A model generated the notes under the pieces. The model was not told where the DNA came from and did no database searches. It saw nothing but the letters and a program-made list of their open reading frames with translations. The translations under genes and the position numbers were made by a program. Positions 6,218-30,442 of a stretch of DNA of 36,426 nucleotides are shown piece after piece. Source of the DNA: a virus. Numbering within the stretch: position 1 is the first letter of the stretch; every line of letters starts with the position of its first letter. The stretch lies in IMG/VR virus record IMGVR_UViG_3300030329_003538, positions 1 to 36,426 of that record; one strand, written 5' to 3'.

Positions 6218-6946
6218 CTATAGTATTTTTTCCATTCCTGCCGGATTAAAGTCTCCGTGGAATCCAAAAGATCCGTATGTGGGTAGCACTCGCCTGTCGT
6301 AATTGCCCAATTCTTTTATCGGGTGCTCTACGGAAAATTTATACGCTAACTCTGAAGGGGCGAACTTAACGCCCCTGTTTACCATGTTGTAGTAATTGAA
6401 TACGCAAATGTTTAGGTCTTCATTCTTGTGGAAGATTTCTAGATTAAAACAAGAGTCTATAAATCGCTTGCTCCTTATGGAAAACCCGCCGTTTCCTACT
6501 ACATTGGGAAACCACTTAACTTTATCCTGACACATATCACTTGTTCTTAAAATGTGTTCTGGCCAAGGTGCTCCTATATAGTCGTATTCAAGGAAAGCGT
6601 CTGTCCATTTGCTTTGATCTATTATTGTAGAATCTGACTGAACATTTAAACAAAACTCAGTTTTGACACCCTCCTGTAGTTTCTTTAAGAATACATTTGA
6701 AAACTTTTCTCTTTCCGTGTCGTTCTTGAGGTCTGAGGAGATCGATTCACCGATAGATACGACTGTGATGTCGTTTTCTTGTATGAACTTGTCGTATCGT
6801 TTTGCTGATTCAGTATCTGTTATTATAATCTTACCACCAAACTCAACCCTATCAATACAATTCTGCATAGAGTTCACTGAATTTCTAGAGTGCTCATTGT
6901 CACCCCAAAACAGTGAGAGCAACGTGACATCATTTAGTTTAAGCAT
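6218..6946 (-). CDS. DUF5672-type glycosyltransferase
   Basis: 242 aa. The diagnostic string is YIGAPWP followed by NVVGNGGFSIRSKRFID, then NEDLNICVFNYY and FGFHG near the C-terminus. This is the pattern of DUF5672 proteins, putative GT-A transferases found in phages and in bacterial capsule or flagellar glycosylation loci. The VQSDSTI segment may stand in for the metal-binding loop. The start overlaps the upstream intein-bearing glycosyltransferase by 8 nt, so the two are probably co-translated. Substrate unknown. Confidence 0.82.
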   Translation of the reverse strand: MLKLNDVTLLSLFWGDNEHSRNSVNSMQNCIDRVEFGGKIIITDTESAKRYDKFIQENDITVVSIGESISSDLKNDTEREKFSNVFLKKLQEGVKTEFCLNVQSDSTIIDQSKWTDAFLEYDYIGAPWPEHILRTSDMCQDKVKWFPNVVGNGGFSIRSKRFIDSCFNLEIFHKNEDLNICVFNYYNMVNRGVKFAPSELAYKFSVEHPIKELGNYDRRVLPTYGSFGFHGDFNPAGMEKIL

Positions 6947-9692
6947 TTTTCAACTGCTTCATTCTATTGATTCTGGTTTCTTCCCACTTGTTTCTACGAT
7001 CACATAATCCTCTTAGATTATTGTATGCATCTTGTAAACTAAAAGGTTGATGCATATTAGGATTATCAAACGCCGCTGAAGACTCATTGAAATACATACC
7101 TCCAGTCATTGACGTGGTGGTTTTATATGTCAGATCTTTAGTGAGTCTCATTTCAAAGAACGTCCCTAGTTTTTCTGGTTCACAGAGCACCTTGGCGATT
7201 AACCACCTTGCTAAATCTCCATATGGTACATCTTTTGGAAGGTCTTGTGGAAGTTCTTCTGGTTGGTGTATGCGAGGTGGAGCACCCCATGTTTTCTCTA
7301 TTGGTAGGGACTCAAAGCTATCAAAATAGTCTTCCCATTGCTTGCCGCTTAGATGCCACTGGAAATGTTTCTCAAAGTTTTCTCTAGTCCGTTCACCCTC
7401 TTTTGCTCTATCCTCATCCGTTTTGTCTTCAAAGAAGGAGCGGAAAAATCCTGCGGCAGCATCGTTGTCTGGGACTGCACGTAAACAACCTGTCTCTAGC
7501 TCCTTATACAAGGCTGCTGGTTTAAGAGGATACCCTTCCAGTTTTCTAATCTCACTCTCCATAGCAGAGTAGTCAGTGCCGCACACTGGTATTCCACAAG
7601 CCGCAGCCTCTACATACGGAAGCCCAAAACCTTCACAGTTGGCATACTGAGTATAAAGGTCGAACAGGTTTACGATAGAAGAGAGGTCTTCGTATGACGC
7701 CCCGTTCTTTACGTTAGATAGGGTCGCACACCAGTTTCCGGTAAACGGAGATTGTGCTACAGCACCCTTAAACAGCGAAGGAAATGGCTTGTTAGTTTCG
7801 TTACAAATGTATGTAAAGAGAACATGTGACGAAAGCTCATTTTCTTGTAGGAGTTCGGGGATGTTCCACCCCAAGTCTGGGTAGCTAGTGTGGCAGTAGA
7901 GATAGTAATCTTTACTCTTGGCTTGGTCTAGGAACTTTTTAAAGGCTATAAAGAGGTCTGGGTACAACTTGCGGCGCTGGTTACGCATAACCGTGCCTAT
8001 AATTTTGTATTTTGGATCTATTCCAAACTTTTTCTTGTGGGCAATTTTGTCTTCTACTGGATGGTAGGCGGGGTGGGCTGACGGTGGAGCACTTCCTAAG
8101 TAGTTAATCTTTCCTCCTGATTGATCCGTCAGAACACCACCCGCCCAATCCGAGTATGTAAAACAGGCATCTGCACCGGCATATGTTGCAACCCACTGTC
8201 TAGCCTGTGGTCTTGCGTCTACAGTGGGCATGACGCAGTTATGTACTGCACAATGGGTAATAAAAGAGTGATCCTCTTCCACCTCTATGTCATATACTTT
8301 CACTTCGTCTTCGTAAGACTCTATGTGTGTCACAGGCATTAAGAAATAGCCATCCTTGATCATTACTCTAGTAAAATCTTTTTTGGAGCTTTCTGTATTA
8401 GACGAAAGTTTACTAATAAGCTCCTTAGAGAAATCTGAACACTTATGACCACTCAGCCTGATCGAATATCCTTCTTGTTTTCTTGATCCATTTAGTCTAA
8501 AACAGTATCCCAGAGACCTTCCTATGTCAGCCACCTGTCTAGCTAGAGTTTTTGACTTGCTAAACATCTCTATAGACGGCGTGTTGTGGTTAGTTCTAGT
8601 CACACAGCCATCGCCAGAAAAATATCCATCAAGTAGTATTTTAGCTTGTTTTTTATTCAGGTTTTTGTAACATAATGGGAGAATTTTCAATCCATCCTGA
8701 TCATAAAATTTACTAAATCTTTCTACTAAATGCCTTCCGTAAAATCTTAATGTTGTTTTGTTTCCATCTACCTTTTTGTCTCCATTTTCACTCTTAAAAT
8801 ATTCTTCTACTCTCTTTATGGTATCTGATTCGTCACTATGGAAATAAAAAGATATTCTGTATTTTTCTCTGGCGGATCCATCTGCTATAAAATGACCATT
8901 AATCCATAAATCTTCATCATTGCAGTCAATTCCGTGTCCCAATTCCATTATTGGCAACATTAAATAATCACCAATTGTTAAGTCGGAAGATGGTATAAAA
9001 TCTTTTAATGCAGTGTCGATAGAATCTATTTTTCTATGATACCTTCTGGTTTCGTTGTTCCAAGTTCTTTTTTGTTTTTTTGTAACTAAAACTTCATGAT
9101 CTGATGTACAAACCAGAGGTTCAGCCATTCCTTCTGCCTTGATTTTTACCATTAAACCTTTGTGAACGTGAGAGCTTGCTTTGTTTACTTTTCTCCTCCT
9201 GTTTTGGTGTGTTGCCACCTTTTCACCATTTAGATGTCTGTCCATGTAGCTTTCTATAGGTTGCGCATATCCAAAATCGGTTACTACTGGAGTTCCCGCT
9301 GGAAAACACCACTTAAAGTAGGGCCGGAAAGGAGACCTCTCTGCAAAATCTAACATCCAAAAGTCGCGTATGTCACATACGACATCTGGTAGAAAATCTA
9401 AACACACATGTTCAAATATCCACTCTCCAAACTGATTTGTACCTTTTGAGTCATATGCCTGTAGTTCTTCCTGTGAGGCTTTTGGTTCACAGTCTCTATT
9501 AGGCATAACCCCGTAATACTTCCACGGTATATTTGCTGCTCGCGGGTCGTTACGTTGCCCATAGGATGCCATTTCTGCAATTTCATACTTGCCAGTAGAG
9601 TGCAAGTAATTGAGAATTTCTCGTGTATATGTGGCATATCCGGTATTTAAAAATGTAGCTTCGCTACAGAACAGTATGCGCTTTTTCTGCAT
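6939..9692 (-). CDS. GT4-like glycosyltransferase interrupted by an intein
   Basis: 917-aa precursor from ATG 9692, which follows the ssb stop by 1 nt and has AAGGA 5-6 nt upstream. The host protein (exteins) is about 560 aa: residues 1-128 (MQKKRILFCSEATFLNTGY, GT-B N-half) and about 486-917. The C-half carries GTVMRNQRRKLYPDLF and the donor signature CEGFGLPYVEAAACGIPV. A 357-aa in-frame intein begins at Cys129 after YFKW and ends HCAVHN before CVMPTVDARPQ. A C-terminal tail of over 150 residues follows the GT domain. Splicing would join FKW to CVMPTVD. Inteins usually sit in DNA-metabolism genes, so this host is unusual. Confidence 0.9.
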   Translation of the reverse strand: MQKKRILFCSEATFLNTGYATYTREILNYLHSTGKYEIAEMASYGQRNDPRAANIPWKYYGVMPNRDCEPKASQEELQAYDSKGTNQFGEWIFEHVCLDFLPDVVCDIRDFWMLDFAERSPFRPYFKWCFPAGTPVVTDFGYAQPIESYMDRHLNGEKVATHQNRRRKVNKASSHVHKGLMVKIKAEGMAEPLVCTSDHEVLVTKKQKRTWNNETRRYHRKIDSIDTALKDFIPSSDLTIGDYLMLPIMELGHGIDCNDEDLWINGHFIADGSAREKYRISFYFHSDESDTIKRVEEYFKSENGDKKVDGNKTTLRFYGRHLVERFSKFYDQDGLKILPLCYKNLNKKQAKILLDGYFSGDGCVTRTNHNTPSIEMFSKSKTLARQVADIGRSLGYCFRLNGSRKQEGYSIRLSGHKCSDFSKELISKLSSNTESSKKDFTRVMIKDGYFLMPVTHIESYEDEVKVYDIEVEEDHSFITHCAVHNCVMPTVDARPQARQWVATYAGADACFTYSDWAGGVLTDQSGGKINYLGSAPPSAHPAYHPVEDKIAHKKKFGIDPKYKIIGTVMRNQRRKLYPDLFIAFKKFLDQAKSKDYYLYCHTSYPDLGWNIPELLQENELSSHVLFTYICNETNKPFPSLFKGAVAQSPFTGNWCATLSNVKNGASYEDLSSIVNLFDLYTQYANCEGFGLPYVEAAACGIPVCGTDYSAMESEIRKLEGYPLKPAALYKELETGCLRAVPDNDAAAGFFRSFFEDKTDEDRAKEGERTRENFEKHFQWHLSGKQWEDYFDSFESLPIEKTWGAPPRIHQPEELPQDLPKDVPYGDLARWLIAKVLCEPEKLGTFFEMRLTKDLTYKTTTSMTGGMYFNESSAAFDNPNMHQPFSLQDAYNNLRGLCDRRNKWEETRINRMKQLKNA
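8238..9308 (-). mobile_element. Cys-type intein with LAGLIDADG endonuclease, in glycosyltransferase
   Basis: 357 aa in frame inside the glycosyltransferase. Block A: CFPAGTPVVTDFGYAQPIES with nucleophile Cys1. Block B: LVCTSDHEVLV with the T-x2-H pair. Block F: VKVYDIEVEEDHSFI. Block G: HCAVHN, with Cys as the +1 residue. The complete canonical residue set suggests active class 1 splicing. The central part has two LAGLIDADG-like helices, INGHFIADGS and LLDGYFSGDGCV, both keeping the acidic catalytic residue, so a homing endonuclease is probably intact. The boundaries follow from the junction residues and were checked at codon level at both ends. Confidence 0.93.
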
Positions 9693-9693
9693 G

Positions 9694-10005
9694 TTAGTCC
9701 TTTTCGGGTTGGCAAATATCAAATTCATTAACTCGAAAGACGATAGATCCATCTTCTTCCGTTGCATTTCGAGCAGAACAATACACAGTCATTTTTGTGC
9801 CTCTGTCCACTAGCTTTTCTATGGTTTCAGCGCCGGTATGCCATGCCTCTAGGTTAATATAGGTTGGTATCCTGGTTTTTTCACCAGTCGCCTTAGACCT
9901 CCTATAAGTATAGGATACAAGGGTAAATTCCACAACACTGACTCCCCCTTCGACAGATAATTCAGGGTCATCAACTACAAAACCCGTAAAAGTACAGACA
10001 TTCAT
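9694..10005 (-). CDS. ssb: Single-stranded DNA-binding protein (SSB)
   Basis: 103 aa from ATG 10005, which has AGGA just upstream; a longer frame to 10056 lacks this. The OB-fold pattern of bacterial SSB is clear: MNVCTFTGFVVDDPELS, VVEFTLVSYTYRR, YINLEAWHTGAETIEKLV, GTKMTVYCSAR, VFRVNEFDI. It is short: the acidic C-terminal tail of cellular SSB is reduced to CQPEKD, which lacks the terminal DDIPF-like hook. It would coat ssDNA at the phage fork. It is preceded by a 144-nt leader with a promoter and a palindrome, one of two such leaders here, so its expression may be reset at this point. Confidence 0.85.
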   Translation of the reverse strand: MNVCTFTGFVVDDPELSVEGGVSVVEFTLVSYTYRRSKATGEKTRIPTYINLEAWHTGAETIEKLVDRGTKMTVYCSARNATEEDGSIVFRVNEFDICQPEKD

Positions 10006-10149: not shown

Positions 10150-11313
10150 TTAAATTTCGTAAATTTTTTCAATAATGAGAGAATTATCCCCTCTCTTTAC
10201 ATCCCCGCAGAAAAGCAGGTTATTTCCTTCATATAGCATATACTCGTATTTCTTTCGAGCCTCTGGAAATACGACGACACTATCAAGTATACATGTTTCA
10301 TCTTCAATTGTTAAAAAGGACATTAGTTGCCCTGGGTTTTTGCCGTTCTTTGTCTTGACGCTGTTTATGCGAACAATGTTGCCTGCAACACATAGGTTTT
10401 TACCATGCTTCCCATCGACGATTTCCTTGCACGTCGTGGTAGCCGCCGAAGTGTCTGCCGCATCAATTCTAGCAAGAGATACTGGACAACCCAGAAACTT
10501 GATTTCTTGATCGATAATCCACGATGGATCGTCGTCTAGACTAAACGGTGGATCGTCAATCATGTCTAGCTCGTTTTGTATAACCTGACTACGAGCCTTG
10601 GTGCTTGTTCCACCGCCCTCTTTTTTTGTTGGCTGTAAAGCCGTGAGGCAGTCTTTAAGGTTCTGCCACCCTACATTAGAGGTGTGATGGTTAATCGCCC
10701 ATTCCTGTTCCTTTTTTGTTAGAATGCGGAATATTTCGTACTCATACAGTGCTTTATTTCTAGATACTCCAGTTGATTTTGTGCTAAAGAAACCAATAGA
10801 CGCCAAAGCTTTAAATGAGGTAGCATTGATTTTTGGAGACAAAAACATTAGCACGTCTAGCCATGTAAAGTCTTTAGACTTCTTGCCGGTCTCCGATTCT
10901 ACCTCCTCAAGAATGGAGATAACTTTATCTCCAGATACTCCAGTCAACGACTTGACATCTTTAATACCAAAGTAAATATCTTTACCAAGTATGTCAAACT
11001 TTGTGCTAAATCTGGTAAGGTTTGGTATCTTTACTTCGATATCAAACAGTTTAGCTTCAGATACCAGTTCGTATACTTCTTGGTGCGGGTCTTGTTTGTC
11101 AGCAGCATGGTACAGGTAAGACAGGAAAAACTCTTTAGTATGATTAGCTTTATACCACGCTGCCATGTAAGCATCTTTAGCGTATGCTACACTGTGAGAA
11201 TTAGATACGACCATATTGTTTCCGTAAAATATATGGTCCTCTGAATCTACCTCTATGTCCATACAGGTTTTCAGTCCAGCTTTTTCAATGCTGATAATTT
11301 TTGCTTTACGCAT
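10150..11313 (-). CDS. dnaE: DNA polymerase III alpha, C-terminal fragment with split-intein C-half
   Basis: 387 aa. Residues 1-38 (MRKAKIISIEKAG ... NNMVVSN) are the C-terminal half of a split intein. Polymerase sequence begins with SHSVAYAKDAYMAAWYKANH, the motif after FNK in E. coli DnaE (FNKSHSAAYALVSYQTLW). The finger/helix-hairpin-helix region follows, then IKFLGCPVSLARIDAAD, and an OB domain (NLCVAGNIVRINSVKTKNGK to LLFCGDVKRG) at the C-terminus. ATG 11313 has GGAG 7 nt upstream and lies 43 nt inside the homing endonuclease gene. Trans-splicing with the 12200-13015 product would restore FNK-SHS. The fragment is probably useless without splicing. Confidence 0.92.
   Translation of the reverse strand: MRKAKIISIEKAGLKTCMDIEVDSEDHIFYGNNMVVSNSHSVAYAKDAYMAAWYKANHTKEFFLSYLYHAADKQDPHQEVYELVSEAKLFDIEVKIPNLTRFSTKFDILGKDIYFGIKDVKSLTGVSGDKVISILEEVESETGKKSKDFTWLDVLMFLSPKINATSFKALASIGFFSTKSTGVSRNKALYEYEIFRILTKKEQEWAINHHTSNVGWQNLKDCLTALQPTKKEGGGTSTKARSQVIQNELDMIDDPPFSLDDDPSWIIDQEIKFLGCPVSLARIDAADTSAATTTCKEIVDGKHGKNLCVAGNIVRINSVKTKNGKNPGQLMSFLTIEDETCILDSVVVFPEARKKYEYMLYEGNNLLFCGDVKRGDNSLIIEKIYEI
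11200..11313 (-). mobile_element. Split intein, C-terminal half (IntC, 38 aa)
   Basis: Starts MRKAKIISIEKAG. Block F is KTCMDIEVDSEDHIFYG with Asp at the usual position. Block G is NNMVVSN, ending in the cyclising Asn, with Ser as the +1 extein nucleophile. The penultimate residue is Ser rather than the common His. Length and start at its own ATG resemble known phage split-intein C-halves of 35-40 aa. Codon check: AAT at 11202-11200, then TCT CAC for Ser-His. Confidence 0.9.
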
Positions 11314-12164
11314 TCTTCATCTCCAAGTATATCTGATTCCCAAAATCTTATCAAATTTATATTATTATTGATGCAATATTCGTTCTTCCTTTTATCTCTA
11401 TAGTAATTTACCTTTTGTGTTTTTGTTTTTGGTCCGTTGTGGTATATCTTCGGATTAGAATGAAAATAATCTCCATCTACTTCTATGTAGATATCTAAAT
11501 CTTTTAAGTAGAAATCAAAACTCCAATATAATCTATGTTTTTCTTTTTCGTAACTTATACCTAAATCTTGTAAAAAGGATTCAAATCTTAAGGACGGCAA
11601 TGTGTCCGTGTGTTTAAATTTTCCGTTTTTAATCATTTCAAGAGTGTTTGCTCTAAATTTTTTCTTATTTTCTTCTGAGTGCTTACACCCCGTATGACCA
11701 TGTACTTTTCTTTTTTTTGCAGCTTCACTCTGTTTTTTCTTGGTTTCTGTAGAAACCGTTCTGTTTGACATTTTTTGGGATACGCTCATTATAGATGGAG
11801 ATGTCTCTTTTGTCAATGATAAATTCCAAGGTTTTTTGCCAAACATTGGGTTCCCCGAACCCTTTCTTGTTTTCTTGGCCTTTTCGGCCCAGTCTAGTAA
11901 ACCTTTATTTCTACCACATGCCATTTTCCTATACGCTATATTTGATGATTTTGTTACAATGTCAAGCGTCTTGCCGCAAATACCACAAGGGCATTTGATT
12001 TTATTATCAAAATAGTCATTTAAGGTAACGTCATGTTCATCTTCTAGGTGTTCTTTAAAGTAGTTGGATTTATATGCCCCCATTCTTCTTCGATCTTTTG
12101 TTATTTCATTAATATCTTTACCACATAGCTTGCACGCTTTCCATTCTTCTTTTGGTATAATCAT
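11271..12164 (-). CDS. Vsr-like homing endonuclease between split-intein halves
   Basis: 297 aa. N-terminal zinc-finger-like motifs: CKLC ... HLEDEH (about residues 15-45) and CPCGICGKTL. Then NUMOD3-like DNA-binding repeats: GSGNPMFGKKPWN and HSEENKKKFR. The C-terminal nuclease domain (about 190-290) reads WSFDFYLKDLDIYIEVDGDY, FHSNP and INNNINLIRFWESDI, the Vsr/PD-(D/E)XK-like core with Asp, Glu and His. It has its own strong SD, AGGAGG, 7 nt before ATG 12164, and overlaps the IntC gene by 43 nt. This placement, split-intein halves flanking a Vsr-related nuclease, is the published fractured-gene arrangement. It probably cleaves intein-less dnaE alleles; the target is untested. Confidence 0.88.
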   Translation of the reverse strand: MIIPKEEWKACKLCGKDINEITKDRRRMGAYKSNYFKEHLEDEHDVTLNDYFDNKIKCPCGICGKTLDIVTKSSNIAYRKMACGRNKGLLDWAEKAKKTRKGSGNPMFGKKPWNLSLTKETSPSIMSVSQKMSNRTVSTETKKKQSEAAKKRKVHGHTGCKHSEENKKKFRANTLEMIKNGKFKHTDTLPSLRFESFLQDLGISYEKEKHRLYWSFDFYLKDLDIYIEVDGDYFHSNPKIYHNGPKTKTQKVNYYRDKRKNEYCINNNINLIRFWESDILGDEECVKQKLSALKKLD

Positions 12165-12199
12165 TAGTAAGCCTCCTGTTAAATTTAATATAGCTCATA

Positions 12200-13015
12200 C
12201 TAATTATTATACACAAAAATCTCAACATTGCCTTCGATTATTTCTTTCAGTGGGCGCATTTTTTTGTCAGCACATAAAAATTTATGATCCAGTGTGCATC
12301 TAATTGTGTCGCCGTCAGACGTTTGTACTTCATATATTTCCTTTTCTCCGCTATCTATTACATCTACTACATCAACGTAATGATCTTCTTCATCGTTTTT
12401 GGGTGCTAATACTTTATCTCCAGCCTTTATCTCGTGAAGAAGTTTAGGTCCGTTTGGAGTGTAGACAACTGTTTCTGGATCTAGACATTTATTAAATGCA
12501 TAGCGGGAAGATTTCTCAATCCAACTGAAGATAGCTTCAGCGGTTTCTTTGGTAACGATTCCTTTACTAGTCGCACCCTTTAGGAAAGCTTTCTTTACTT
12601 TCGCCATGAGATCGGCTTTTTTCTTACCAATAGCTTTACGTAGCTCGTCAGCTTCCTTTAGGTCGAATCCTGCTAACTTTTGGGCTATACGCATAGACTG
12701 CTCTTGATATACAAGGACGCCGTGAGTTGGTTTTAGGATTTCTTCTAAAGACTCGTGTAGGTATGTAATCTCATCACGTCCATGTTTTCTATCAACATAG
12801 TGCTGAGTCATCGACTTACCATCGGTAATGGCCTTGAGTGTTCCTGGTCTGATAATCGCTATTAAGGCCGATAGTTCTTCAAGGTTCGATGGGGCGACCT
12901 TCTTAGACCATGACTTACCTAAATTACTTTCAAGTTGGAATACACCTTTAGTGTAACCATTTTTAAACAAGTCCCAAGTCTTGCTGTCTTCCAAGTCAAT
13001 CTTAGACATACACAT
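12200..13015 (-). CDS. dnaE: DNA polymerase III alpha, middle fragment with split-intein N-half
   Basis: About 271 aa from ATG 13015 (ATG 13009 is an alternative; the frame continues to a TTG at 13039). Polymerase residues 1-176 match the DnaE fingers: NGYTKGVFQLES, ALIAIIRPG, YVDRKHGRDEITYLHESLE, GVLVYQEQSMRIAQ, LRKAIGKKKADLMAKVKKAF, ending SRYAFNK. The last 95 residues are IntN. It lacks the palm aspartates, which are in the separate 13672-15285 product. It overlaps the exonuclease gene by 14 nt. No strong SD is seen, so translation is probably coupled to the exonuclease gene. Confidence 0.9.
   Translation of the reverse strand: MCMSKIDLEDSKTWDLFKNGYTKGVFQLESNLGKSWSKKVAPSNLEELSALIAIIRPGTLKAITDGKSMTQHYVDRKHGRDEITYLHESLEEILKPTHGVLVYQEQSMRIAQKLAGFDLKEADELRKAIGKKKADLMAKVKKAFLKGATSKGIVTKETAEAIFSWIEKSSRYAFNKCLDPETVVYTPNGPKLLHEIKAGDKVLAPKNDEEDHYVDVVDVIDSGEKEIYEVQTSDGDTIRCTLDHKFLCADKKMRPLKEIIEGNVEIFVYNN
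12203..12487 (-). mobile_element. Split intein, N-terminal half (IntN, 95 aa)
   Basis: Begins with Cys1 straight after FNK: CLDPETVVYTPNGPKLLHEI (block A), then GDKVLAP, and block B TIRCTLDHKFLC with T-x2-H. It ends IFVYNN at a TAG stop. There is no endonuclease domain. Together with the 38-aa IntC it makes a 133-aa mini-intein. The codon for Cys1 is TGT at 12487-12485. Confidence 0.92.
12206..12211 (-). promoter_or_regulatory. Possible -10 box ahead of the homing endonuclease gene
   Basis: A perfect TATAAT on the minus strand within the last codons of IntN, 42 nt before the endonuclease ATG. No convincing -35 is seen at 16-18 nt. Own control signals accompanying an inserted endonuclease gene are known for fractured loci, but in an AT-rich stretch this could be chance. 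Confidence 0.25.
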
Positions 13016-13679
13016 CACCGTTTGCAAAGGCTTTGTCAACTTTTAAATTACGGTATACAGCACGATGCGTTTTCATGAACTTGATCATGATATTCGCGGT
13101 GTCTTTAACGTCCTGAAGGGCATCGTGGGCGTTTTCAGTAGACATCCCCATTCTTTCACGCATAGAGTCCATGCTTATAGACTTCACATTAGGATCGCCC
13201 TCTGTCCACATAAATACATTATCCATAACGTCGATCTTGTAGACTGAGCTAAACAGCTTTTGACGTTTACGCTTGTCATCCCACGGTCCAAACTCTTGGC
13301 ACAACCTGTCTATGATAATCATGTCATAGCCAATGATGTTGAAGCCCGCAGGGATAGGAGCAAAGAAAGGTGTACCTTTCCAGTTATACTTGTCTACAAA
13401 CTGAGTAAACTTTTTCCATACGGTTTTCAAGTGTGGAGCTTTTGCGATACCCTCTCTGGTTTTACCTGTAACTTTTAGGGCACCTTCTTCGATTGGGCCT
13501 AAACCCTTCTTAACGGCCTTTTCATCGTCTACCTCTGCACGGATCTCGCTATTGAAAGACCCCTTCAGCTTAAAGTTCCTACCATCCAACGCTATAGCAG
13601 CCAACTGTGTAGGCTGACATGTGTTGGGGTCTCTACCGCCTGTTTCAAAGTCAAATACAATTATATCTCGGTTAGCCAT
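13002..13679 (-). CDS. DnaQ-like DEDDh 3'-5' exonuclease
   Basis: 225 aa starting MANRDIIVFDFETGGRDPN. Exo I is FDFETGG (Asp and Glu), Exo II is NIIGYDMIIIDRL (Asp) and Exo III is NAHDALQDVKDTANI (His and Asp), a full DEDDh set. It is therefore a likely active proofreading exonuclease for the fragmented Pol III, comparable to the epsilon subunit. Its ATG overlaps the stop of the N-terminal polymerase gene by 8 nt, and its end overlaps the middle polymerase gene, so it is wedged between two pieces of the enzyme it should serve. AGGA lies about 8 nt before the ATG. Confidence 0.88.
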   Translation of the reverse strand: MANRDIIVFDFETGGRDPNTCQPTQLAAIALDGRNFKLKGSFNSEIRAEVDDEKAVKKGLGPIEEGALKVTGKTREGIAKAPHLKTVWKKFTQFVDKYNWKGTPFFAPIPAGFNIIGYDMIIIDRLCQEFGPWDDKRKRQKLFSSVYKIDVMDNVFMWTEGDPNVKSISMDSMRERMGMSTENAHDALQDVKDTANIMIKFMKTHRAVYRNLKVDKAFANGDVYV

Positions 13680-15285
13680 TTATCAATTCCTCAACTTTCA
13701 TTATCTTGTCTAAAAGTGTTAGTCCAAGCACGTCAAACTTAACATGTCCTAGTGCTTCTAAATCTGCCATTTCAAGTCCCGCAATCTTTTCTCCACCGCT
13801 GCGTTGATTTACCATCGGGCAAACCTTTGGTAGAGGTTCTGCCGATATAACAACTCCAGCAGCATGCTTGCCTTGAGTTTTAAATGTCCCCTCTATCTCA
13901 ATTGCCTGTTTAAAGAATTCAGCGTAATCACCGTCAAGATCTCCGTTGTCATTAATGAAACAAAAATCACGAAGGTCGTCGGCGTTGTTGATCAATGCCC
14001 ATCTGATGATAGATCTATCTTCTTCGTCCATCTCTTGTAACTGGTCAGAAATTGCAGCTTCGTCAGGAATGGACTTGGTGATCTCGTTCATTTCGCTAAA
14101 GCTACACACGTCACTAATACGCAGCACTTCTTTTAAGGCGCTCCTACCTTGCAGCCTGCCAAATGTAAGCATCTGACTCACGTTATCTTTACCGTAAGTA
14201 TTTTTAAGATACTCAATGATATCATCACGTTTGTTAGCTGGAACATCCATGTCAATGTCTGGAAGTGAATCAGTGCGGGCTGCATTATAAAACCTTTCAA
14301 ATAATAAATCAAACTCAATTGGGTCAATCTGAGTAATTTCAATGAGGTAAGAAATCAGGCACCCAGCAGCAGACCCTCGACCCGGACCAGCTAGCCACCC
14401 CTGATTTGTTACATATCTAATAATATCCTGTACGATCAAAAAATATCCAAACAGTTTAGCTTGCTTGATTACATCAAACTCCATAGTAAATCTGTCAAGA
14501 TATGTTTTCTTGTCCTCTTCTCTTTTTACCTTCCCGGTTTTATGTAGGAATTTTACCCACCCTTCGCGGCAAAGTTGTTTTAAATGTCCTTCTTCGGACT
14601 CACCCTCTGGGGTTGGGAACTTCGGAAGCATTGGCGGGTTAAGAATCTCATAATCTTCGCACAGCTTGTAGATTTCCTCTAAACATGACTCACCGTATTT
14701 ATCGTCGGGCATTTCTGCAAGAGACTTTAGATGAAATGTATCTTTTATGAAAAACTCTTCGTTTTTCTCTAGCTTGCCAGATCTCACAAGCGTATTAACC
14801 TTCGGTAGAGTCGTTTTCATGGCTGAACACAGCAGTATTCTATGAAGATGGGCGTGTTCACGCTCAATGTAATGAGAAGGTGACGTAAGTGGGTTTTGCT
14901 TGAATGTCAACCGCCTGTCACATGGAGAATCGCTATATTCGCCATCAGTAATGCAAATCAGGTTCCCTCTTTGACAAATCTCTTTCGTAATGTTAAGGTA
15001 CTCGTTACCCTCTGGACTTAAGGAAGACACAATCTCAATCAAATCAAACCACCCCTGCTTGTTTTTTGCAAACAGGATGTAATGGTCGAATGAGCAGCCA
15101 ATAATTGGTTTTATTCCACTATCCTTACAGGCTTTGTAGAACGACACCGCGCCTGATATCGACTTGTAGTCAGAGATTCCGCAGGCAACGTATCCATTCT
15201 CAACACATTTTTGGGATAGCTGTTTAGGCTTAGAGAAGCCCTTCAGCAACGAGTAGTGCGTGTAGTTACAAAGTGGGTATTTCAT
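13672..15285 (-). CDS. dnaE: DNA polymerase III alpha, N-terminal fragment (PHP and palm)
   Basis: 537 aa from ATG 15285, preceded by GAGAAAG; ATG 15306 is a possible earlier start without an SD. Residues 1-80 are PHP-like (YTHYSLLKG, GISDYKSISG, GIKPIIG), but the usual H-x-H-S metal motif is lost. The palm has GPGRGSAAGCLISYLI, PDIDMDVP (two catalytic Asp), QMLTFGRLQGRSALKEV, GKHAAGVVI and VKFDVLGL (third Asp). It ends LDKIMKVEELING, exactly before the variable linker that precedes GVFQLES in normal DnaE. Nothing conserved is missing between this piece and the next, so non-covalent reassembly with the spliced C-part is plausible. A palindromic element lies just upstream. Confidence 0.93.
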   Translation of the reverse strand: MKYPLCNYTHYSLLKGFSKPKQLSQKCVENGYVACGISDYKSISGAVSFYKACKDSGIKPIIGCSFDHYILFAKNKQGWFDLIEIVSSLSPEGNEYLNITKEICQRGNLICITDGEYSDSPCDRRLTFKQNPLTSPSHYIEREHAHLHRILLCSAMKTTLPKVNTLVRSGKLEKNEEFFIKDTFHLKSLAEMPDDKYGESCLEEIYKLCEDYEILNPPMLPKFPTPEGESEEGHLKQLCREGWVKFLHKTGKVKREEDKKTYLDRFTMEFDVIKQAKLFGYFLIVQDIIRYVTNQGWLAGPGRGSAAGCLISYLIEITQIDPIEFDLLFERFYNAARTDSLPDIDMDVPANKRDDIIEYLKNTYGKDNVSQMLTFGRLQGRSALKEVLRISDVCSFSEMNEITKSIPDEAAISDQLQEMDEEDRSIIRWALINNADDLRDFCFINDNGDLDGDYAEFFKQAIEIEGTFKTQGKHAAGVVISAEPLPKVCPMVNQRSGGEKIAGLEMADLEALGHVKFDVLGLTLLDKIMKVEELING

Positions 15286-15311
15286 ATTCTTTCTCAACAA
15301 AAACATAACAA

Positions 15312-15743: not shown

Positions 15744-16973
15744 TTATAGTAATTCCTTAATTACACTGCCGCCGTTTGCCATCTTAATGGGTCTGCCGCT
15801 CTTAGACGTATGCTTTTTCTCTGTGTCGATTCCCAATGCCGACAAAGTTGTAGCCATCAAATCCGAAGCGGTGTACGACTTCCCATCAACTGTCTTTCCG
15901 TCAGGTGAGGTTTTTCCAATAGCCTGCCCCCCTTTGAATAGACCTCCGGAAACAAATGAGGACCACGTAGCAGCCCAATGGTCACGACCAGCATTTTGGT
16001 TGATACGAGGTGTGCGACCAAATTCCCCCATACATATTATAGCAGTATTTTGCCAAATGTCCAATCTTTTTAGGTCAAAAATCAGAGAATTTAGAACTTT
16101 ATCTAACTGTGGCAGTTTTGTTTGGAGGGTTTCATGCGTCATATTGTGCAAGTCCCAACCTCCGAAGCCAACTTCTACGAATGGGACTCCCTGTTGAATC
16201 AAACGCCGAGCCATAAGTGCTCCACGACCTAGACTTGTATTGCCGTATGCTTCAAGAACCTGTGCGGGTTCCTGTTCAATTTTAAGAGCATTCATCTGCG
16301 GACTTGTGTTCAGCTTAAAGGTTTTTTCAAGTAGCTTCTTGTGATCGCTTGGCATCTCCCCACGATTGCTTTTTATAAAATTATCCTCTATTACCGAAAG
16401 CATTCTAAGTCTGTTGACGTTTAGGTTGTCGCCCCCAAGATTTGGTACAGTTCCATTGCTACGAACAGAAAAGGGATTCCAAGCCGTCCCTAGAAACCCA
16501 CCACCGTGACTATTTGTGTCGATGGAGAAGAAAGCTGGAATTTCCAAACCTTTGTTTAGGGGTCCAAGCTCACTGGCAACAACCGATCCTATTGACGGGT
16601 GTACCATTCGAGGGTTGGGAGCAAAGCCCGTGTGCATCTTGTACCGGCCTCGCCCATGATCTGCCTCACGGGTGCTCATACTCCTAATAAGCGAGAAATC
16701 ACCCCCTCTCTGAGCGAGAAGTGGTAGGTGTTCTGAGATTTGGAAGTCACCAGTTGTGCTAATTGGCTTGAAAGGACCGCCCTCTTTGGTTCCCGGCTTC
16801 AAGTCCCACATGTCAATAGTAGGAGGACCGCCACCCAGCCAGATCAATATCGCTGCCTTTCGGTCTTTATGAAGTTTGGAATGATTATGTATAATCTGTT
16901 GACCAAATGTTAGCGAAGTACTGGCTAGGGTGGCTAGTCCTGTTGAATGTTGTATGAATTGTCTTCTGTTCAT
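15744..16973 (-). CDS. TAT-exported DUF1501 (alkaline phosphatase-like fold) protein, copy A
   Basis: 409 aa. The N-terminus NRRQFIQHSTGLATLASTS has twin arginines plus a hydrophobic stretch, a TAT-type signal. DUF1501 landmarks: IWLGGGPPTIDMWDLKPG, FGGWDLHNMTHE, CMGEFGRTPRINQNAGRDHW and GRPI near the end. DUF1501 proteins belong to the sulfatase/alkaline-phosphatase-like superfamily, occur mainly in Planctomycetota and relatives, and have no settled reaction. The length is usual for the family and no truncation is seen. It starts in an ATGA overlap with glf. It is unexpected in a phage; it may modify the host envelope or be an acquired host gene. Confidence 0.9.
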   Translation of the reverse strand: MNRRQFIQHSTGLATLASTSLTFGQQIIHNHSKLHKDRKAAILIWLGGGPPTIDMWDLKPGTKEGGPFKPISTTGDFQISEHLPLLAQRGGDFSLIRSMSTREADHGRGRYKMHTGFAPNPRMVHPSIGSVVASELGPLNKGLEIPAFFSIDTNSHGGGFLGTAWNPFSVRSNGTVPNLGGDNLNVNRLRMLSVIEDNFIKSNRGEMPSDHKKLLEKTFKLNTSPQMNALKIEQEPAQVLEAYGNTSLGRGALMARRLIQQGVPFVEVGFGGWDLHNMTHETLQTKLPQLDKVLNSLIFDLKRLDIWQNTAIICMGEFGRTPRINQNAGRDHWAATWSSFVSGGLFKGGQAIGKTSPDGKTVDGKSYTASDLMATTLSALGIDTEKKHTSKSGRPIKMANGGSVIKELL

Positions 16974-18055
16974 TTTAGCTCTTTCTTTGCTGTGCTCATT
17001 GAGGATGCAATAACTTGGTGCATATCATAATATTTATATTCAGCTAACCTGCCGCCAAATATGTACTTATCTTTTATCAGGCTCTTGTATCTATAAAACT
17101 TGTCTTGATTCTTTTTGTCATTTATCGGGTAAAATTTTTCTTTGCCCCTCGTCCACGTCTGGGGGTATTCTTTAGTAAAAACAGTATCCTTTTGCCCCGT
17201 GTTGTTAAAGTGTTTGTGTTCAACTATTCTGGTGTACGGCGTGTCTACATCTGTATAGTTTACCGCCGCCACACCTTGAAAATCTAGATCTTTCCGATCA
17301 TTGTGTTCGAACCTAAGACTTCTCCACTCTAATTCTCCATATTCGTATTCAAAAAACTCATCTATCGCTCCGGTGTAAACCACTCTTTTAGCCATTTTAT
17401 CATATGATTCACGGTTTGTCAAGTAGTTTTTTCCCAACTCGACAGGAATTCCTTCTAGCATATTTTGAAATATCTGAGTGTACCCGCCTGTGGGAATGCC
17501 TTGATACCTGTCGTTGAAATAGTTATCGTCATAAGCTAGCCTAATCGGTAGCCTTTTTATGATTGATGCTGGTAAATTTTTAGGATCTGTATTCCACTGC
17601 TTATACGTATAGCCGTAAACAAACTTTTCATACAATTCTTTGCCGACCTGTGATAATATCCACTCCTCTAGGTTGTTGGGAGATTCATTGTGAATTTTTA
17701 CGCTATCTAGATACGCTTTTGCCTCGCTGGGTGTAGATACGCCGCATATTTGATACAGGGTCATCAAATTTATTGGAAACGAATAAATCTCATTCTTGTA
17801 GTTAACCTTTGGTCTGTAGGTGAAGTTATTGAAGTCTGTAAACTGACCGATGTAGTCCCATATGGGTTGGCTGTTTGTGTGAAATATGTGAGGGCCGTAG
17901 ACATGGACATCTATTCCCAGCTTCTTTTTCGTAAAACAATTGCCACCTACATGATCTCTTTTATCAATGACTAGACATTTTTTGCCCCTGTCCGTAGCCT
18001 GTCTAGCAAATGTAGCACCAAACAGACCACATCCTACAACCAAGTAGTCATACAT
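16970..18055 (-). CDS. glf: UDP-galactopyranose mutase
   Basis: 361 aa. The FAD-binding Rossmann motif is VVGCGLFGATFARQATDRGK (residues 6-25), followed by VIDKRDHVGGNCF and VHVYGPHIFHT, the hallmark of Glf. Further family segments are YKNEIYSFPINLMTLYQI, GYTYKQWNTDP and RYQGIPTGGYTQIF. The C-terminus YKYYDMHQVIASSM is also typical. It interconverts UDP-galactopyranose and UDP-galactofuranose in the cytoplasm. It probably supplies Galf to nearby transferases. Length matches cellular homologues (360-390 aa). Confidence 0.95.
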   Translation of the reverse strand: MYDYLVVGCGLFGATFARQATDRGKKCLVIDKRDHVGGNCFTKKKLGIDVHVYGPHIFHTNSQPIWDYIGQFTDFNNFTYRPKVNYKNEIYSFPINLMTLYQICGVSTPSEAKAYLDSVKIHNESPNNLEEWILSQVGKELYEKFVYGYTYKQWNTDPKNLPASIIKRLPIRLAYDDNYFNDRYQGIPTGGYTQIFQNMLEGIPVELGKNYLTNRESYDKMAKRVVYTGAIDEFFEYEYGELEWRSLRFEHNDRKDLDFQGVAAVNYTDVDTPYTRIVEHKHFNNTGQKDTVFTKEYPQTWTRGKEKFYPINDKKNQDKFYRYKSLIKDKYIFGGRLAEYKYYDMHQVIASSMSTAKKELK

Positions 18056-21499: not shown

Positions 21500-21515
21500 T
21501 AATACTATAGTATTA
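21500..21515. repeat. Perfect 16-bp palindrome at end of DUF1501 gene
   Basis: TAATACTATAGTATTA reads the same on both strands. It covers the stop codon region of the upstream DUF1501 gene (stop at 21505) and the start of the 46-nt gap before the membrane-protein gene. It may be an operator or the core of a weak promoter region; an AT-rich TATATATAAT follows at about 21481-21490 on the minus strand. Confidence 0.5.
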
Positions 21516-22743
21516 CCTGCCCGTCTCCATCTAGTAAGTATCGAGGTCTTCCGGCTTGGTCCATTCTCTGAATCTTAGCATCTATGCTAAAGTGGTCAAA
21601 CAAAGTTGCCGCTAGATCTATTGGACCAATCTTTTGATCGGTAGGGTAATACCCCTTATCGGCCTTGCCAATAACTCTACCGTGCTCATAATCGCCACCA
21701 GATAGAAGCATAGGTGTGATGGACGGCCAATGGTCGCGGCCAGAGTTAGCATTTAATCTAGTTCTACCAAATTCTCCTGTGACGACAAGCAGGACATCTT
21801 TACTCATGCCCATATTATAGATGTCATCAACAAATGCGGAAAGGGCTTTATCTATTGGTGGAACCCTCCCCTCAAGAGCCTTCTTTATGTTTCCATGCAT
21901 GTCCCAGCCACCATAATGGACCGTAACAAACTTGCTGCCAAACTGAGCTAACCGTCTAGCTAGAAGCATCTGGTCTCCGACTCCGCCCTTGCCATATCTT
22001 TCTCTTACCTTTTCGTCTTCTTGGTCTAGATCAAACGCATCTTTAGCGTTACCCAAGACGACATTGTAGGCTTGATCACCTATTTTTTCGAAAGAGTTAG
22101 CCTGATTAGAGAAAAACTTTCTCTTGCTATCAAAAAGACCTAATAGCTGTTTCCTATCCTTAAGTCTATCAATAGCGACCTTGGGGATCAGGTTTTCTTT
22201 GTTACTTGGGTCAAAGGGTTTATTAGCTCCACCAAGAAATGCTGGCTGCTCACCTTCGATTTTACCCTGTTTGACATAAGCTGGCATTCCATTTTTTGGA
22301 TGATTAGACCCAAAAACAGACGATATAATTGCTCCATGTCCAGGAAATTCTGAGTCAGCAGTCGTTTCCCTCTTAGGGTTGCGGTGACCCGTCATCATCC
22401 AGTGGGTGGCCTGTCTATGAGAAGAATCCCCATGTGAAAAAGAGTTTACGGCTGTTAAATTATCCCCTCTTTTGATCAAATTTTTAAACAATCCACCAAA
22501 TGCAAGCCCGTTGCTGTGAGTCACAACGTCACTAACAGATGAGTGTGTATCTGGAACGGGGTCAGTTGGAGCATGGAAAGTTTCAAACTGTGTAGGACCA
22601 CCACCCAGCCAAACCCAGACTACAGACTTATCATTTGAAGATATTGTATCCTCAGCAAAGATAGCGTCAGATAAAGACAAATAGCCTAAACCAAGTCCAC
22701 CAACTCTAATGAAATCTCTTCTGTTTGTTCGTATATCAAGCAT
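21505..22743 (-). CDS. TAT-exported DUF1501 (alkaline phosphatase-like fold) protein, copy B
   Basis: 412 aa; GGAG lies 8 nt before the ATG. The N-terminus TNRRDFIRVGGLGLGYLSLS is a twin-arginine signal. DUF1501 landmarks: VWVWLGGGPTQFETFHAP, MTGHRNPKRETT, VHYGGWDMHGN, VTGEFGRTRLNANSGRDHWP and GRPRYLLDGDGQVIL. It shares the family landmarks with the 15744-16973 product but differs strongly in most of its length, so this is a paralogue rather than a recent duplicate. The two bound the glycan island. Substrate unknown; a secreted metal-dependent hydrolase is inferred from the fold. Confidence 0.9.
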   Translation of the reverse strand: MLDIRTNRRDFIRVGGLGLGYLSLSDAIFAEDTISSNDKSVVWVWLGGGPTQFETFHAPTDPVPDTHSSVSDVVTHSNGLAFGGLFKNLIKRGDNLTAVNSFSHGDSSHRQATHWMMTGHRNPKRETTADSEFPGHGAIISSVFGSNHPKNGMPAYVKQGKIEGEQPAFLGGANKPFDPSNKENLIPKVAIDRLKDRKQLLGLFDSKRKFFSNQANSFEKIGDQAYNVVLGNAKDAFDLDQEDEKVRERYGKGGVGDQMLLARRLAQFGSKFVTVHYGGWDMHGNIKKALEGRVPPIDKALSAFVDDIYNMGMSKDVLLVVTGEFGRTRLNANSGRDHWPSITPMLLSGGDYEHGRVIGKADKGYYPTDQKIGPIDLAATLFDHFSIDAKIQRMDQAGRPRYLLDGDGQVIL

Positions 22744-27446: not shown

Positions 27447-27913
27447 GATCTCTTTCCTTTCTCCATCAAGCAATCTGCTTTTTTTCTTACCGTATATTCT
27501 TTGTTTTTAAGAGAGGCGACCCTGGCTTCGGCCACATCCTTCCATTCTCGTATTTTTTTTACCACTACGTTTTCTCGGGCTATAGTGGCTTCTTTTACTT
27601 CATGCTTCGTATACTTAACCCAGTCTGTTGGAAAATTTTCGGATTCCTGTACTATTATAGTCAGGAGAGACCCATTACACCAGTTTATTACTGTCTCCTG
27701 TAGACTTTTTTCGTGATTTATGTGATCAGCATACTGGTACAGCATATAAGCATAATTAAAGCACTCGCCTGCTGTTAGGTTGTCCATATCTTTCAGAGAG
27801 ACCTGCTCTGGTATCCTGAACTCATCGTTGAACTCTGTCGGACCTAAATTTTTGGCTTCAATATATCTATTTATGCCGTCTAAAAAATCTTGAAGCCTAT
27901 CTTGCGCAGTCAA
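27443..27913 (-). CDS. Hypothetical protein beside recA (possible recombination accessory)
   Basis: 156 aa. The start is TTG 27913, with GGAG 8 nt upstream; the first in-frame ATG is 42 codons later. The N-terminal half is acidic, and the C-terminal half (EVKEATIARENVVVKKIREW to VRKKADCLMEKG) is a basic helical stretch. Its size, charge pattern and position between a nuclease plus recA and the helicase are similar to the recombination mediator UvsY, but I see no sequence identity that would support that name. Confidence 0.6.
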   Translation of the reverse strand: MTAQDRLQDFLDGINRYIEAKNLGPTEFNDEFRIPEQVSLKDMDNLTAGECFNYAYMLYQYADHINHEKSLQETVINWCNGSLLTIIVQESENFPTDWVKYTKHEVKEATIARENVVVKKIREWKDVAEARVASLKNKEYTVRKKADCLMEKGKRS

Positions 27914-28322
27914 TTTGATCTCTCCAATCTTCGTCTGAGTCTAGGTAGCTGAACTCTACGAGGGTTATTTCATTTAGCTCGCACCATTCTTTTTTAACAG
28001 CATCTCTTCTTTTATGCTTATAGAATCCAGCCTCGGTTTTATGAAAAAAGGGGCAAAATTCATAATGCTGTCTGCCGTGAACCTCAACACCTATCATAAC
28101 ACTCGGTATCAAAAAGTCAAGAAACAAAGCGGATTTTTTGCTGGGATTTCTAGACCCTGGTAATTTTACCTCTTCTAGTACGCTGTATCCTTTAAAGGAT
28201 TTGCGTAATATATCGCGTGCTCGCAAATGATAACTTGACCTTTTTCTTGTGTCGTCATTCCTAACGATGTACTTTTTAAGGTCTATCCGATATTCTCTGC
28301 CGTTTATACCTAAAACTTTCAT
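27897..28322 (-). CDS. Vsr/PD-(D/E)XK-like nuclease
   Basis: 141 aa. The nuclease core is FLDFLIPSVMIGVEVHGRQH, with Asp, Glu and His-Gly-x-Gln-His, then a basic helix KRRDAVKKEWCELNEI and LVEFSYLD. The pattern is like Vsr and DUF559-type endonucleases. It overlaps recA by 4 nt (ATGA) and the next gene by 17 nt, as a normal operon member would. It may be a recombination nuclease, or a stand-alone relative of the homing endonucleases next to RecA genes in some phages. Confidence 0.7.
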   Translation of the reverse strand: MKVLGINGREYRIDLKKYIVRNDDTRKRSSYHLRARDILRKSFKGYSVLEEVKLPGSRNPSKKSALFLDFLIPSVMIGVEVHGRQHYEFCPFFHKTEAGFYKHKRRDAVKKEWCELNEITLVEFSYLDSDEDWRDQIDCAR

Positions 28323-30442
28323 CTGATTTCTTTTATCTGATTGTGAATGAATTTTGTTATCGGCTCATTCTCGGTTAAGAAATCGGTCAATTTTTGAATA
28401 CCTTGGAATTTAAAGAATTTCTGTACGGCTTCTGGGTCTTCATGGTCCACACTGTTGGCTTTTAAGACATTTTTGATAACCGGGTCTTTGCAGTTGTCAA
28501 TTGCGGTTGTAATTTCATACCAAGCTCCAGATCTTTTGACCATGCTAAATTCATTAGCTAATTGTGCTATTTCTTGAGCTTCGTCAATACCAATACCATA
28601 CCTAATCCACCCTTCGGCTGTAGAATTTGGTGTGCCACCAGAGGCAGATGTCAATATTTTCCAATTTGCAACCTGCCCAATATGAGGTCCAGATTCATCA
28701 TTAGATTGTAACCACTTACCCCTATGGGTAATTTTCATTTTAGTGCCAGCTTGATACTGCACCATGTTTCCAGAGTCTTCCATCTTGGCTGGAGACCAAC
28801 GGCTACCGCCAGTGTTTGCGATATTATGCAGTATGAATATTAGTATTGCCTTAGTTCTTGAAACGTCGCCAGAAATTCTTTTCAGGAACATCGACATTAA
28901 TCTCGGCAGGTTATTTCTAACGCCGGTCCTGATTTCACCTTCTAGCTCCTCCTGGGGGACCATATTAGATACCGAATCAACAATAGCCACAAGGTCTGGA
29001 GTATTTTTAACATACATCTCTAGGGTGTTAAGATACATTTCTGCGGACACTAACGGCATCTCGTCGGTAGCTTGTACAATCTTTATCTTCTTGGTATCTA
29101 AACCCTTGATTCCTGTAAAGTTCTCCTTGGTCATACGCCCTTCAGTATTGAAATAGATGATGTTCTTACCGAGAGCTTGACATTTAGATGCGAAATAAAG
29201 AGCAGTGGTCGTGTTATGAGTCACTGTAAAATTGTCTGTGACATACAGGTGGTCTGCATGATCTACGGAGATACATTGACACTCTTCTTGTCTGACAATT
29301 TCTATTTTTTTAATAGTCCTACATAGATTTGGTTTGCTTCTACACTGATTAAATTGTTTACGCGATAGTTTAAACAGCTTGTTTATATCGTTGCCAGATA
29401 TATGTAATCTAAAAGATTTAAACTCCTTTCCGTTACATTTTGTGATTCTTTCTCGTGTTTTAGCTGTATAACCAAGAGACTGTAGAATTTCTGTAACGTG
29501 AACACTCAGAGCATATGATACGGTAGAATACTCAGCGTTTTTACCTGAATCATTATAACCGTCTGTGTCCATTAACCCTCTAATAAGTTCAAATCTATCC
29601 TCTACTGATGAATAAATGTATTCTTTTGGTATGAATTTTGTATGAGAATTAGAACCCATCAAGCCTAAAGCTCTTAGTTTATTTGTCAAGTCGTTAGTTT
29701 CACCTTCTAGTTTAACTATTGCATAATCGTATCTAGATTTATGATTGATGCTTAGATTATTGTGCTTGGCAAAACATTTGAAAGATTCTAAAATTTCTCC
29801 ATCTGAGGTTGTTATAATTGGCGTACCTTGAGACATTCCGCCGTCTCCAAGTAAGCAACCTAATATATATGGATCTATTGGTAGATTCTGCTTATTAAAC
29901 AATATAGGTTCACATAATGGAATCTTCCATTTTGGTCTATCGCTATAAAACAGGCCGTCTTTAATAATTTCAGATAGCGGGAGAACTGTCCAATCTTTAT
30001 GTCTACCGTGGTAATTTTTTGACACTTTCCATAGATGGTCAATGCCACACTCTGCGTAAGACTCATCGCTAAATGTAATTCGATATACGTCTTTTACGCC
30101 TTGAGGGAATACACCATCAACTTCCGCCGATCCTCCATTTGGAGTGCATACAATATCGCCTATCTTTATATCACCCATCTTTACGGGGCCAGACGGTGTG
30201 TATACTGTTGATGATATAGGTTGTTCTTTACCAGTTTTTGGATCTCCACCTATGATTACACAGTTTCCCTCTCTGATTCCGCCACCGAGGGCGATGTCTA
30301 GAGCAGGAGAAACGCTAATCTTTTGGAAGGATTCTAGCTTGTCAAGTACTTCCTCTCCACTCTCTACGATAGGTCCGTACTTTGAGATTATTTGATTGCT
30401 AGTATCGTCATCTGAAAATTTATTCACTTTCTTTTTCGCCAC
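28319..30442 (-). CDS. recA: RecA-family recombinase interrupted by a class 3 intein
   Basis: 707-aa precursor from GTG 30442, with GGAG 8 nt upstream. The exteins total 369 aa. The N-extein (1-72) ends GGDPKTGK and the C-extein starts TTTALYFASK, so the Walker A GDPKTGKTT is split at GK|T. Next come an Asp/Glu switch region (FNTEGRM), Walker B LVAIVDSVSNM, LPRLMSMFLKRI, ILIFILHNI with TGG, and a C-terminal domain. The family is RecA/UvsX-like; no further distinction is made. It would drive strand exchange and repair. The 338-aa intein makes activity depend on splicing. Confidence 0.92.
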   Translation of the reverse strand: MAKKKVNKFSDDDTSNQIISKYGPIVESGEEVLDKLESFQKISVSPALDIALGGGIREGNCVIIGGDPKTGKEQPISSTVYTPSGPVKMGDIKIGDIVCTPNGGSAEVDGVFPQGVKDVYRITFSDESYAECGIDHLWKVSKNYHGRHKDWTVLPLSEIIKDGLFYSDRPKWKIPLCEPILFNKQNLPIDPYILGCLLGDGGMSQGTPIITTSDGEILESFKCFAKHNNLSINHKSRYDYAIVKLEGETNDLTNKLRALGLMGSNSHTKFIPKEYIYSSVEDRFELIRGLMDTDGYNDSGKNAEYSTVSYALSVHVTEILQSLGYTAKTRERITKCNGKEFKSFRLHISGNDINKLFKLSRKQFNQCRSKPNLCRTIKKIEIVRQEECQCISVDHADHLYVTDNFTVTHNTTTALYFASKCQALGKNIIYFNTEGRMTKENFTGIKGLDTKKIKIVQATDEMPLVSAEMYLNTLEMYVKNTPDLVAIVDSVSNMVPQEELEGEIRTGVRNNLPRLMSMFLKRISGDVSRTKAILIFILHNIANTGGSRWSPAKMEDSGNMVQYQAGTKMKITHRGKWLQSNDESGPHIGQVANWKILTSASGGTPNSTAEGWIRYGIGIDEAQEIAQLANEFSMVKRSGAWYEITTAIDNCKDPVIKNVLKANSVDHEDPEAVQKFFKFQGIQKLTDFLTENEPITKFIHNQIKEIR
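29213..30226 (-). mobile_element. Class 3-type intein with LAGLIDADG endonuclease, in recA Walker A
   Basis: 338 aa, residues 73-410 of the precursor. The first residue is Glu, not Cys/Ser/Ala: EQPISSTVYTPSGPVKMGDI. The Trp-Cys-Thr signature of class 3 inteins is present: Trp in GIDHLWKV (block B, two after His), Cys in CQCISVDHADH (block F, in place of Asp), and Thr in TVTHN (block G). The +1 residue is Thr. Two LAGLIDADG motifs, ILGCLLGDGG and LIRGLMDTDGY, show a full endonuclease. Splicing would start at the block F Cys. Boundaries were checked at codon level: GAA at 30226 and AAC at 29215. Confidence 0.92.

Follow-up and report, generated by a model that had tools for sequence, protein, structure and literature searches.

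The stretch of DNA analysed here (the window) comprises all 36,426 bases of an IMG/VR record that is complete and of class 'linear'. We found no close DNA relative of it among sequenced phages, and neither Rfam elements nor tRNAs were found within it. The minus strand carries a recombinase gene, which starts with GTG, has AAGGAG upstream and encodes 707 amino acids. The encoded protein matched the Pfam RecA model PF00154 (E 1.6e-15, 57.8 bits, cut-off 27) and the UvsX-like family phrog_97 (E 1e-20). It also matched the bacterial RecA equivalog TIGR02012 at 9e-23, yet under the cut-off of that model. Because of this shortfall, the protein is, as judged by its sequence, RecA-like rather than bacterial RecA proper.

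Residues 73-410 of the reading frame form an insert of 338 codons, the frame of which is open throughout. The insert begins with EQPISS right after GDPKTGK and ends with VTHN right before TTTALYF. The first-pass annotation had placed an intein at 29213-30226, splitting the Walker A motif of a RecA-family protein. Its coordinates proved right to the base, and the motif is indeed interrupted as GDPKTGK/TTT; the complete GDPKTGKTTT appears only once the insert is removed. Without the insert, the translation is an unbroken RecA, to which intein-free homologues from viruses can be aligned with up to 87% identity. One of these homologues (L039) shows the expected spliced sequence, GGDPKTGK followed directly by TTTALYFAAKCQA. 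Since the site is uninterrupted in these homologues, the boundary of the intein is fixed. A tblastn search with the intein matched 778 phage records. Together with a Pfam LAGLIDADG_3 match above its cut-off (33.1 bits) and the contiguous RecA obtained after removal, this shows that the insert is not a chance match.

Conservation is given over an intein collection drawn from viral contigs, named phages, and bacterial and archaeal genomes. The collection comprised 211 distinct inteins, which clustering at 80% identity reduced to 175 clusters including that of the window, i.e. 174 non-redundant relatives. The sample is centred on the window intein and was found with profiles of its own family, so that the fractions apply to this family of P-loop inteins instead of class 3 as a whole, and are a description of the family and no independent test of it. 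The features of the locus are listed in Table 1.

Table 1. Features of the intein-bearing recombinase gene, in window coordinates.
Feature	Position	Strand	Basis
RecA/UvsX-like recombinase gene with in-frame intein, 707 aa	28319..30442	minus	ORF, Pfam RecA, phrog_97
N-extein, residues 1-72, ends GDPKTGK (first part of Walker A)	30227..30442	minus	matches intein-free homologues
Class 3 intein, 338 aa, E1 to N338	29213..30226	minus	ORF, tblastn, PDB and multiple alignments
Glu1 codon, intein residue 1	30224..30226	minus	varies among relatives
Block B DHLW: His64 (B:10), Trp66 (B:12, W of WCT)	30029..30040	minus	His 175/175, Trp 172/175 clusters
LAGLIDADG motif 1 LGCLLGDGG, Asp128 on PI-SceI Asp218	29837..29863	minus	Asp 159/175 clusters
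LAGLIDADG motif 2 IRGLMDTDG, Asp222 on PI-SceI Asp326	29558..29584	minus	Asp 172/175 clusters
Block F CQCISV, C of WCT = Cys318 (F:4), codon 29273-29275	29264..29281	minus	Cys 175/175 clusters
Block G VTHN: Thr336 (G:5, T of WCT), His337, Asn338	29213..29224	minus	Thr 174/175; His, Asn 175/175 clusters
C-extein starting TTTALYF; Thr+1 codon 29210-29212	28319..29212	minus	+1 is T/S in 175/175 clusters

Elsewhere in the window, the gene for DNA polymerase III alpha (10150-13039, minus) looks broken up by a split intein. Its N-intein, which starts CLDPETVV and forms the end of ORF 12200-13039 (about 12203-12487), scores above the cut-off of the NCBIfam intein_Nterm model. The C-intein forms the beginning of ORF 10150-11313 (about 11200-11313), and its last residues, VVSN, are followed by SHSVAYA. 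Between the two halves there is an ORF (11271-12164) for a Vsr/HNH-like homing endonuclease. With Cys1, Asp at F:4 and Ser+1, this split intein looks like a class 1 intein. The same polymerase is split again at 13002-15306 (minus), where a PHP and NTPase part (13672-15306), an RNase T-like exonuclease ORF (13002-13679) and the finger part (12200-13039) can be distinguished and no obvious intein is present. A third intein lies at roughly 8235-9308 within a glycosyltransferase gene (6939-9767, minus). It has Cys1, LAGLIDADG and Cys+1, scores above the cut-off of NCBIfam intein_Cterm and is apparently of class 1. The viral contig additionally encodes two DUF1501 proteins and a UDP-galactopyranose mutase (GLF), at 15744-16973, 21505-22743 and 16970-18055 (minus).

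Class assignment, fold and endonuclease domain

Class 3 inteins are recognised by a first residue other than Cys, Ser or Thr, by the WCT triplet (Trp at B:12, Cys at F:4, Thr at G:5), and by Ser, Thr or Cys at +1, a terminal Asn and a block B His. The RecA insert starts with Glu, has Trp66, Cys318 and Thr336 as its triplet, as placed by the 6riz alignment and a multiple alignment, and combines these with Thr+1, Asn338 and His64. In a class 1 intein, the first nucleophile would be a Cys, Ser or Thr at the first position, where Glu1 is found. The features of class 2 (KlbA type) are likewise lacking, the host being RecA, residue 1 Glu, residue 337 His and residue +1 Thr.

In a phmmer search against the PDB, the best match was 6riz with 38.5 bits, compared to 30.4 bits for wild-type gp41-1 (6qaz). 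According to its entry title, 6riz is gp41-1 with C1A, F65W and D107C, a graft which yielded an engineered class 3 gp41-1 (PMC7664689). Trp66 aligned over the grafted Trp and Cys318 over the grafted F:4 Cys. The natural class 3 intein 6bs8 reached E 0.0039 in the single-sequence search and 5.8e-12 in the profile search; wild-type class 1 gp41-1 stood above it by profile (1.9e-14). Among unmodified PDB inteins, class 1 gp41-1 also ranked over class 3 MchDnaB1 in the single-sequence search. Because wild-type class 1 gp41-1 outscores 6bs8, similarity to phage-type inteins alone cannot fix the class, which on these sequence comparisons is decided by residues and not by overall similarity. The near relatives all have Cys at F:4; class 3 structures are among the best splicing-domain matches, with class 1 gp41-1 equally high. 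The Pfam Hint and Intein_splicing models gave no match to the intein at E 0.01, and the NCBIfam N- and C-terminal intein models gave none at E 0.1.

AlphaFold2, run on the intein with 10 residues of each extein and 70 sequences, gave a model with a pLDDT of 91.6 and a pTM of 0.90. PI-SceI was the top Foldseek match of this model (1.6e-18), and VIA-align gave Z 28.4 over 327 residues with PI-SceI (1ef0_A) and Z 18.1, rmsd 1.7, over 123/125 residues with the class 3 DnaB intein 6bs8_C. Class 1 mini-inteins reached Z 17-18, level with the class 3 structures, and we rejected a class call by fold alone because of this tie. Overall, assignment of the RecA insert to class 3 is supported by every testable sequence criterion. 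The class had been proposed in the first-pass annotation from DHLW, CQCISV and VTHN, and it is supported by the alignments to engineered (6riz) and natural class 3 structures, the AlphaFold2 model and the 174 relatives. An alignment placing the block F Cys elsewhere than F:4 had been named as evidence against it; instead, Cys318 falls on the engineered Cys107 of gp41-1_WCT and is found in 175/175 clusters.

The two LAGLIDADG motifs noted earlier are retained with their catalytic Asp pair, Asp128 and Asp222, which lie on Asp218 and Asp326 of PI-SceI, as is characteristic of a homing endonuclease. Asn takes the place of the first LAGLIDADG Asp in 12/175 clusters. The first motif of the L015 and L021 inteins reads ANG, not GDG, and their endonuclease may be inactive because of this replacement.

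Residue 1 among relatives

We found that His64, Asp220, Cys318, His337 and Asn338 are kept in 175/175 clusters. Trp66 is present in 172/175 and Thr336 in 174/175, Lys precedes the intein at -1 in 168/175, and the +1 residue is Thr or Ser in all. The first residue, in contrast, is variable. The commoner ones are Ala (112 of the 175 clusters), Glu (22), Gly (9), Leu (7), Ser (6) and Pro (4), and the rarer ones are Asp, Phe and Val (3 each) and Met, Cys and Gln (2 each). On an intein tree that was built without residue 1 and without a class 1 outgroup, residue 1 changed at least 27 times, with at least 9 changes between Glu and non-Glu.

The first-pass annotation had regarded Glu1 in such an intein as uncommon, a view that these counts contradict. 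Only Ala is a more frequent first residue than Glu. Glu is also present in Vibrio phage 5 TSL-2019, among six named-phage inteins read directly, and in at least 8 inteins at the RecA site. Because of its share of the clusters, its repeated changes on the tree and the named Vibrio phage example, Glu1 is ordinary in this class 3 P-loop intein family and arose repeatedly, and we rejected the idea of a rarity. The annotation had named Ala, next to Cys and Ser, among the residues lacking at position 1; Ala is in fact the commonest class 3 residue there.

At least 17 further viral sequences from IMG/VR phages, all distinct, have such an intein at the same Walker A site of RecA, with 42-74% identity to the window intein. 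These inteins start with Glu (L046, L059, L062, L067, L156, L157, L161), Asp (L003, L005, L148), Ala (L063, L064), Leu (L066, L152, L155), Met (L160), Ser (L065) or Cys (L069). His64, Trp66 and Cys318 are kept in all of them, and Thr336 was lost only in L065, where it is replaced by Ala. Since inteins at one and the same site vary at residue 1 and keep their splicing residues, residue 1 can be read as non-catalytic, and this series is the strongest evidence for such a reading in the analysis. It is very unlikely that Glu1 is active in splicing, as a general base, acyl acceptor or extein-specific tuner, and thereby marks a mechanistic subtype. In favour of such a role, Glu or Asp is enriched at the RecA site (11/18 inteins). 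The acidic residues nevertheless cluster on the intein tree, so that their enrichment fits shared ancestry. Moreover, same-site orthologues start with Ala, Leu, Met, Ser or Cys and keep the other splicing residues, and Glu1 is also seen where the host protein is unrelated, for instance a helicase or a terminase-like protein.

Some relatives differ further around position 1. The L069 intein (1498-2502), in a RecA-like host, has Cys1 after the P-loop Lys and a complete WCT triplet, and the L138 intein likewise follows a P-loop Lys with Cys1 and a complete triplet. With Cys1 next to an intact WCT, both have two candidate nucleophiles. The L065 intein (1486-2520) combines Ser1 with the G:5 change from Thr to Ala (WCA). 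That position 1 drifted between Glu, Asp, Ala, Leu, Met, Ser and Cys at one site, with some inteins holding two usable nucleophiles on a reversible path between class 1 and class 3, is an idea that we offer tentatively and consider rather unlikely. The value of the finding is comparative. With their fixed catalytic residues and varying residue 1, the RecA-site inteins make it possible to test cleanly if the first residue has any influence on class 3 splicing, and how class 1 and class 3 inteins are converted into each other.

Mobility and neighbourhood

On the RecA extein tree, the presence of the intein requires at least 7 gains or losses, 5 of which are forced by supported branches. The window intein shares 60% identity with the intein of L062 and 58% with that of L063, compared to just 38% for the exteins. 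This excess of intein over extein similarity indicates that the intein moved horizontally between divergent recA genes. The existence of intein-free alleles with up to 87% identity, the patchy distribution, and inteins that are closer than their exteins point to homing by the LAGLIDADG endonuclease as the natural reading. The closest intein-free alleles (L030, L032, L034, L035, L038) have GEPKTGK as their P-loop, compared to GDPKTGK in the window and several intein-bearing RecAs.

A decayed, non-splicing intein, which would leave RecA dead in the source phage, is highly improbable. Broken copies or assembly errors do exist, as the frameshifted relative L006 illustrates. The frame in the window is nonetheless open, all splicing and endonuclease motifs are intact, and the RecA extein is well conserved. 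The dN/dS ratio is also low in both the splicing and the endonuclease domain, at about 0.05-0.15 against L046, L003 and L005, a rough estimate with dS near saturation. The L006 intein itself (850-2068) occupies the RecA site, is near that of L005 and has its frameshift in the endonuclease region, either by decay or by an assembly error.

Downstream of recA lies a homing-endonuclease-like ORF of 141 amino acids (27897-28322, minus, phrog_9084). It is kept after recA in intein-free viral homologues with 52-90% identity. A part in the mobility of the intein was rejected, as the ORF is also present beside intein-free recA, and it seems to be a stable neighbour of the gene.

Proposed splicing pathway and comparison with known systems

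Overall, it is very probable that the insert, situated between the Walker A Lys and Thr of a phage RecA/UvsX-like recombinase, is a class 3 intein that is mobile and carries a LAGLIDADG homing endonuclease. From the observed anatomy, conservation, fold, distribution and empty sites, we infer its chemistry, splicing in vivo and DNA cleavage. Cys318, helped by His64 and Thr336, would act as first nucleophile and attack the Lys(-1)-Glu1 bond, giving a branched thioester. The N-extein would next be transferred from Cys318 to Thr+1, the Thr of the Walker A motif, which would double as second splicing nucleophile. Asn338 would cyclise with the assistance of His337, and a final acyl shift would leave a scarless GDPKTGKTTT, Glu1 having no chemical role. 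The endonuclease domain would cut intein-free P-loop coding DNA, and the intein would be copied in. A pathway of F:4 Cys attack, transfer to +1, Asn cyclisation and acyl shift has been established for the class 3 inteins MP-Be DnaB and Dra Snf2, among others (PMC4031507), and structures have provided the basis of class 3 splicing (PMC7664689, PMC6195587). A class 2-like route, in which Thr+1 attacks the N-terminal junction directly and the block F Cys goes unused, would suit a position 1 without nucleophile but is scarcely credible, given that the F:4 Cys is invariant (175/175 clusters) and that class 2 consists of KlbA orthologues, in which residue 1 is Ala, G:6 is Ser and +1 is Cys (PMC4031507), whereas His at G:6 and Thr+1 are found here.

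With class 3 splicing at this site, RecA would be without a working Walker A until splicing is done. Because the motif is incomplete before splicing, and by analogy to the P-loop inteins of RadA and DnaB, the gene might be a candidate for splicing-controlled recombination.

The definition of class 3 dates from 2010-2011, and 1701 inteins of this class were listed in 2020, 82.5% of them with LAGLIDADG (PMC7891396). The single intein described here extends this well-described class to one more host protein; we found no paper that describes a phage RecA or UvsX with a class 3 intein in a search that was thin on subscription journals. The M. smegmatis DnaBi1 intein (6bs8; PMC6195587) shares the WCT triplet, a P-loop site before a hydroxyl +1 residue and a non-nucleophilic first residue, and its splicing domain superposes with that of the window intein (rmsd 1.7, 123 residues). 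In contrast, DnaBi1 is a mini-intein without endonuclease, in a DnaB host, with Ser+1 and Ala1. The class 3 inteins of phage terminases and helicases (PMC5050341, PMC7891396) also have the WCT triplet and in most cases LAGLIDADG, but differ in the host protein and in residue 1, which is mostly Ala in the sampled relatives. For the TerL1-a inteins, P-loop insertion between Lys and Thr has been called classic (PMC5050341). The best identity of the window intein to inteins of named phages was 40%. The RecA-site inteins of IMG/VR phages share its insertion point and host family and differ in residue 1 (E/D/A/L/M/S/C). The RadA mini-intein of Pyrococcus horikoshii is a class 1 intein with Cys1. It likewise lies within the P-loop of a RecA-family recombinase, but its host is an archaeal RadA and it is without endonuclease (PMC5790916).
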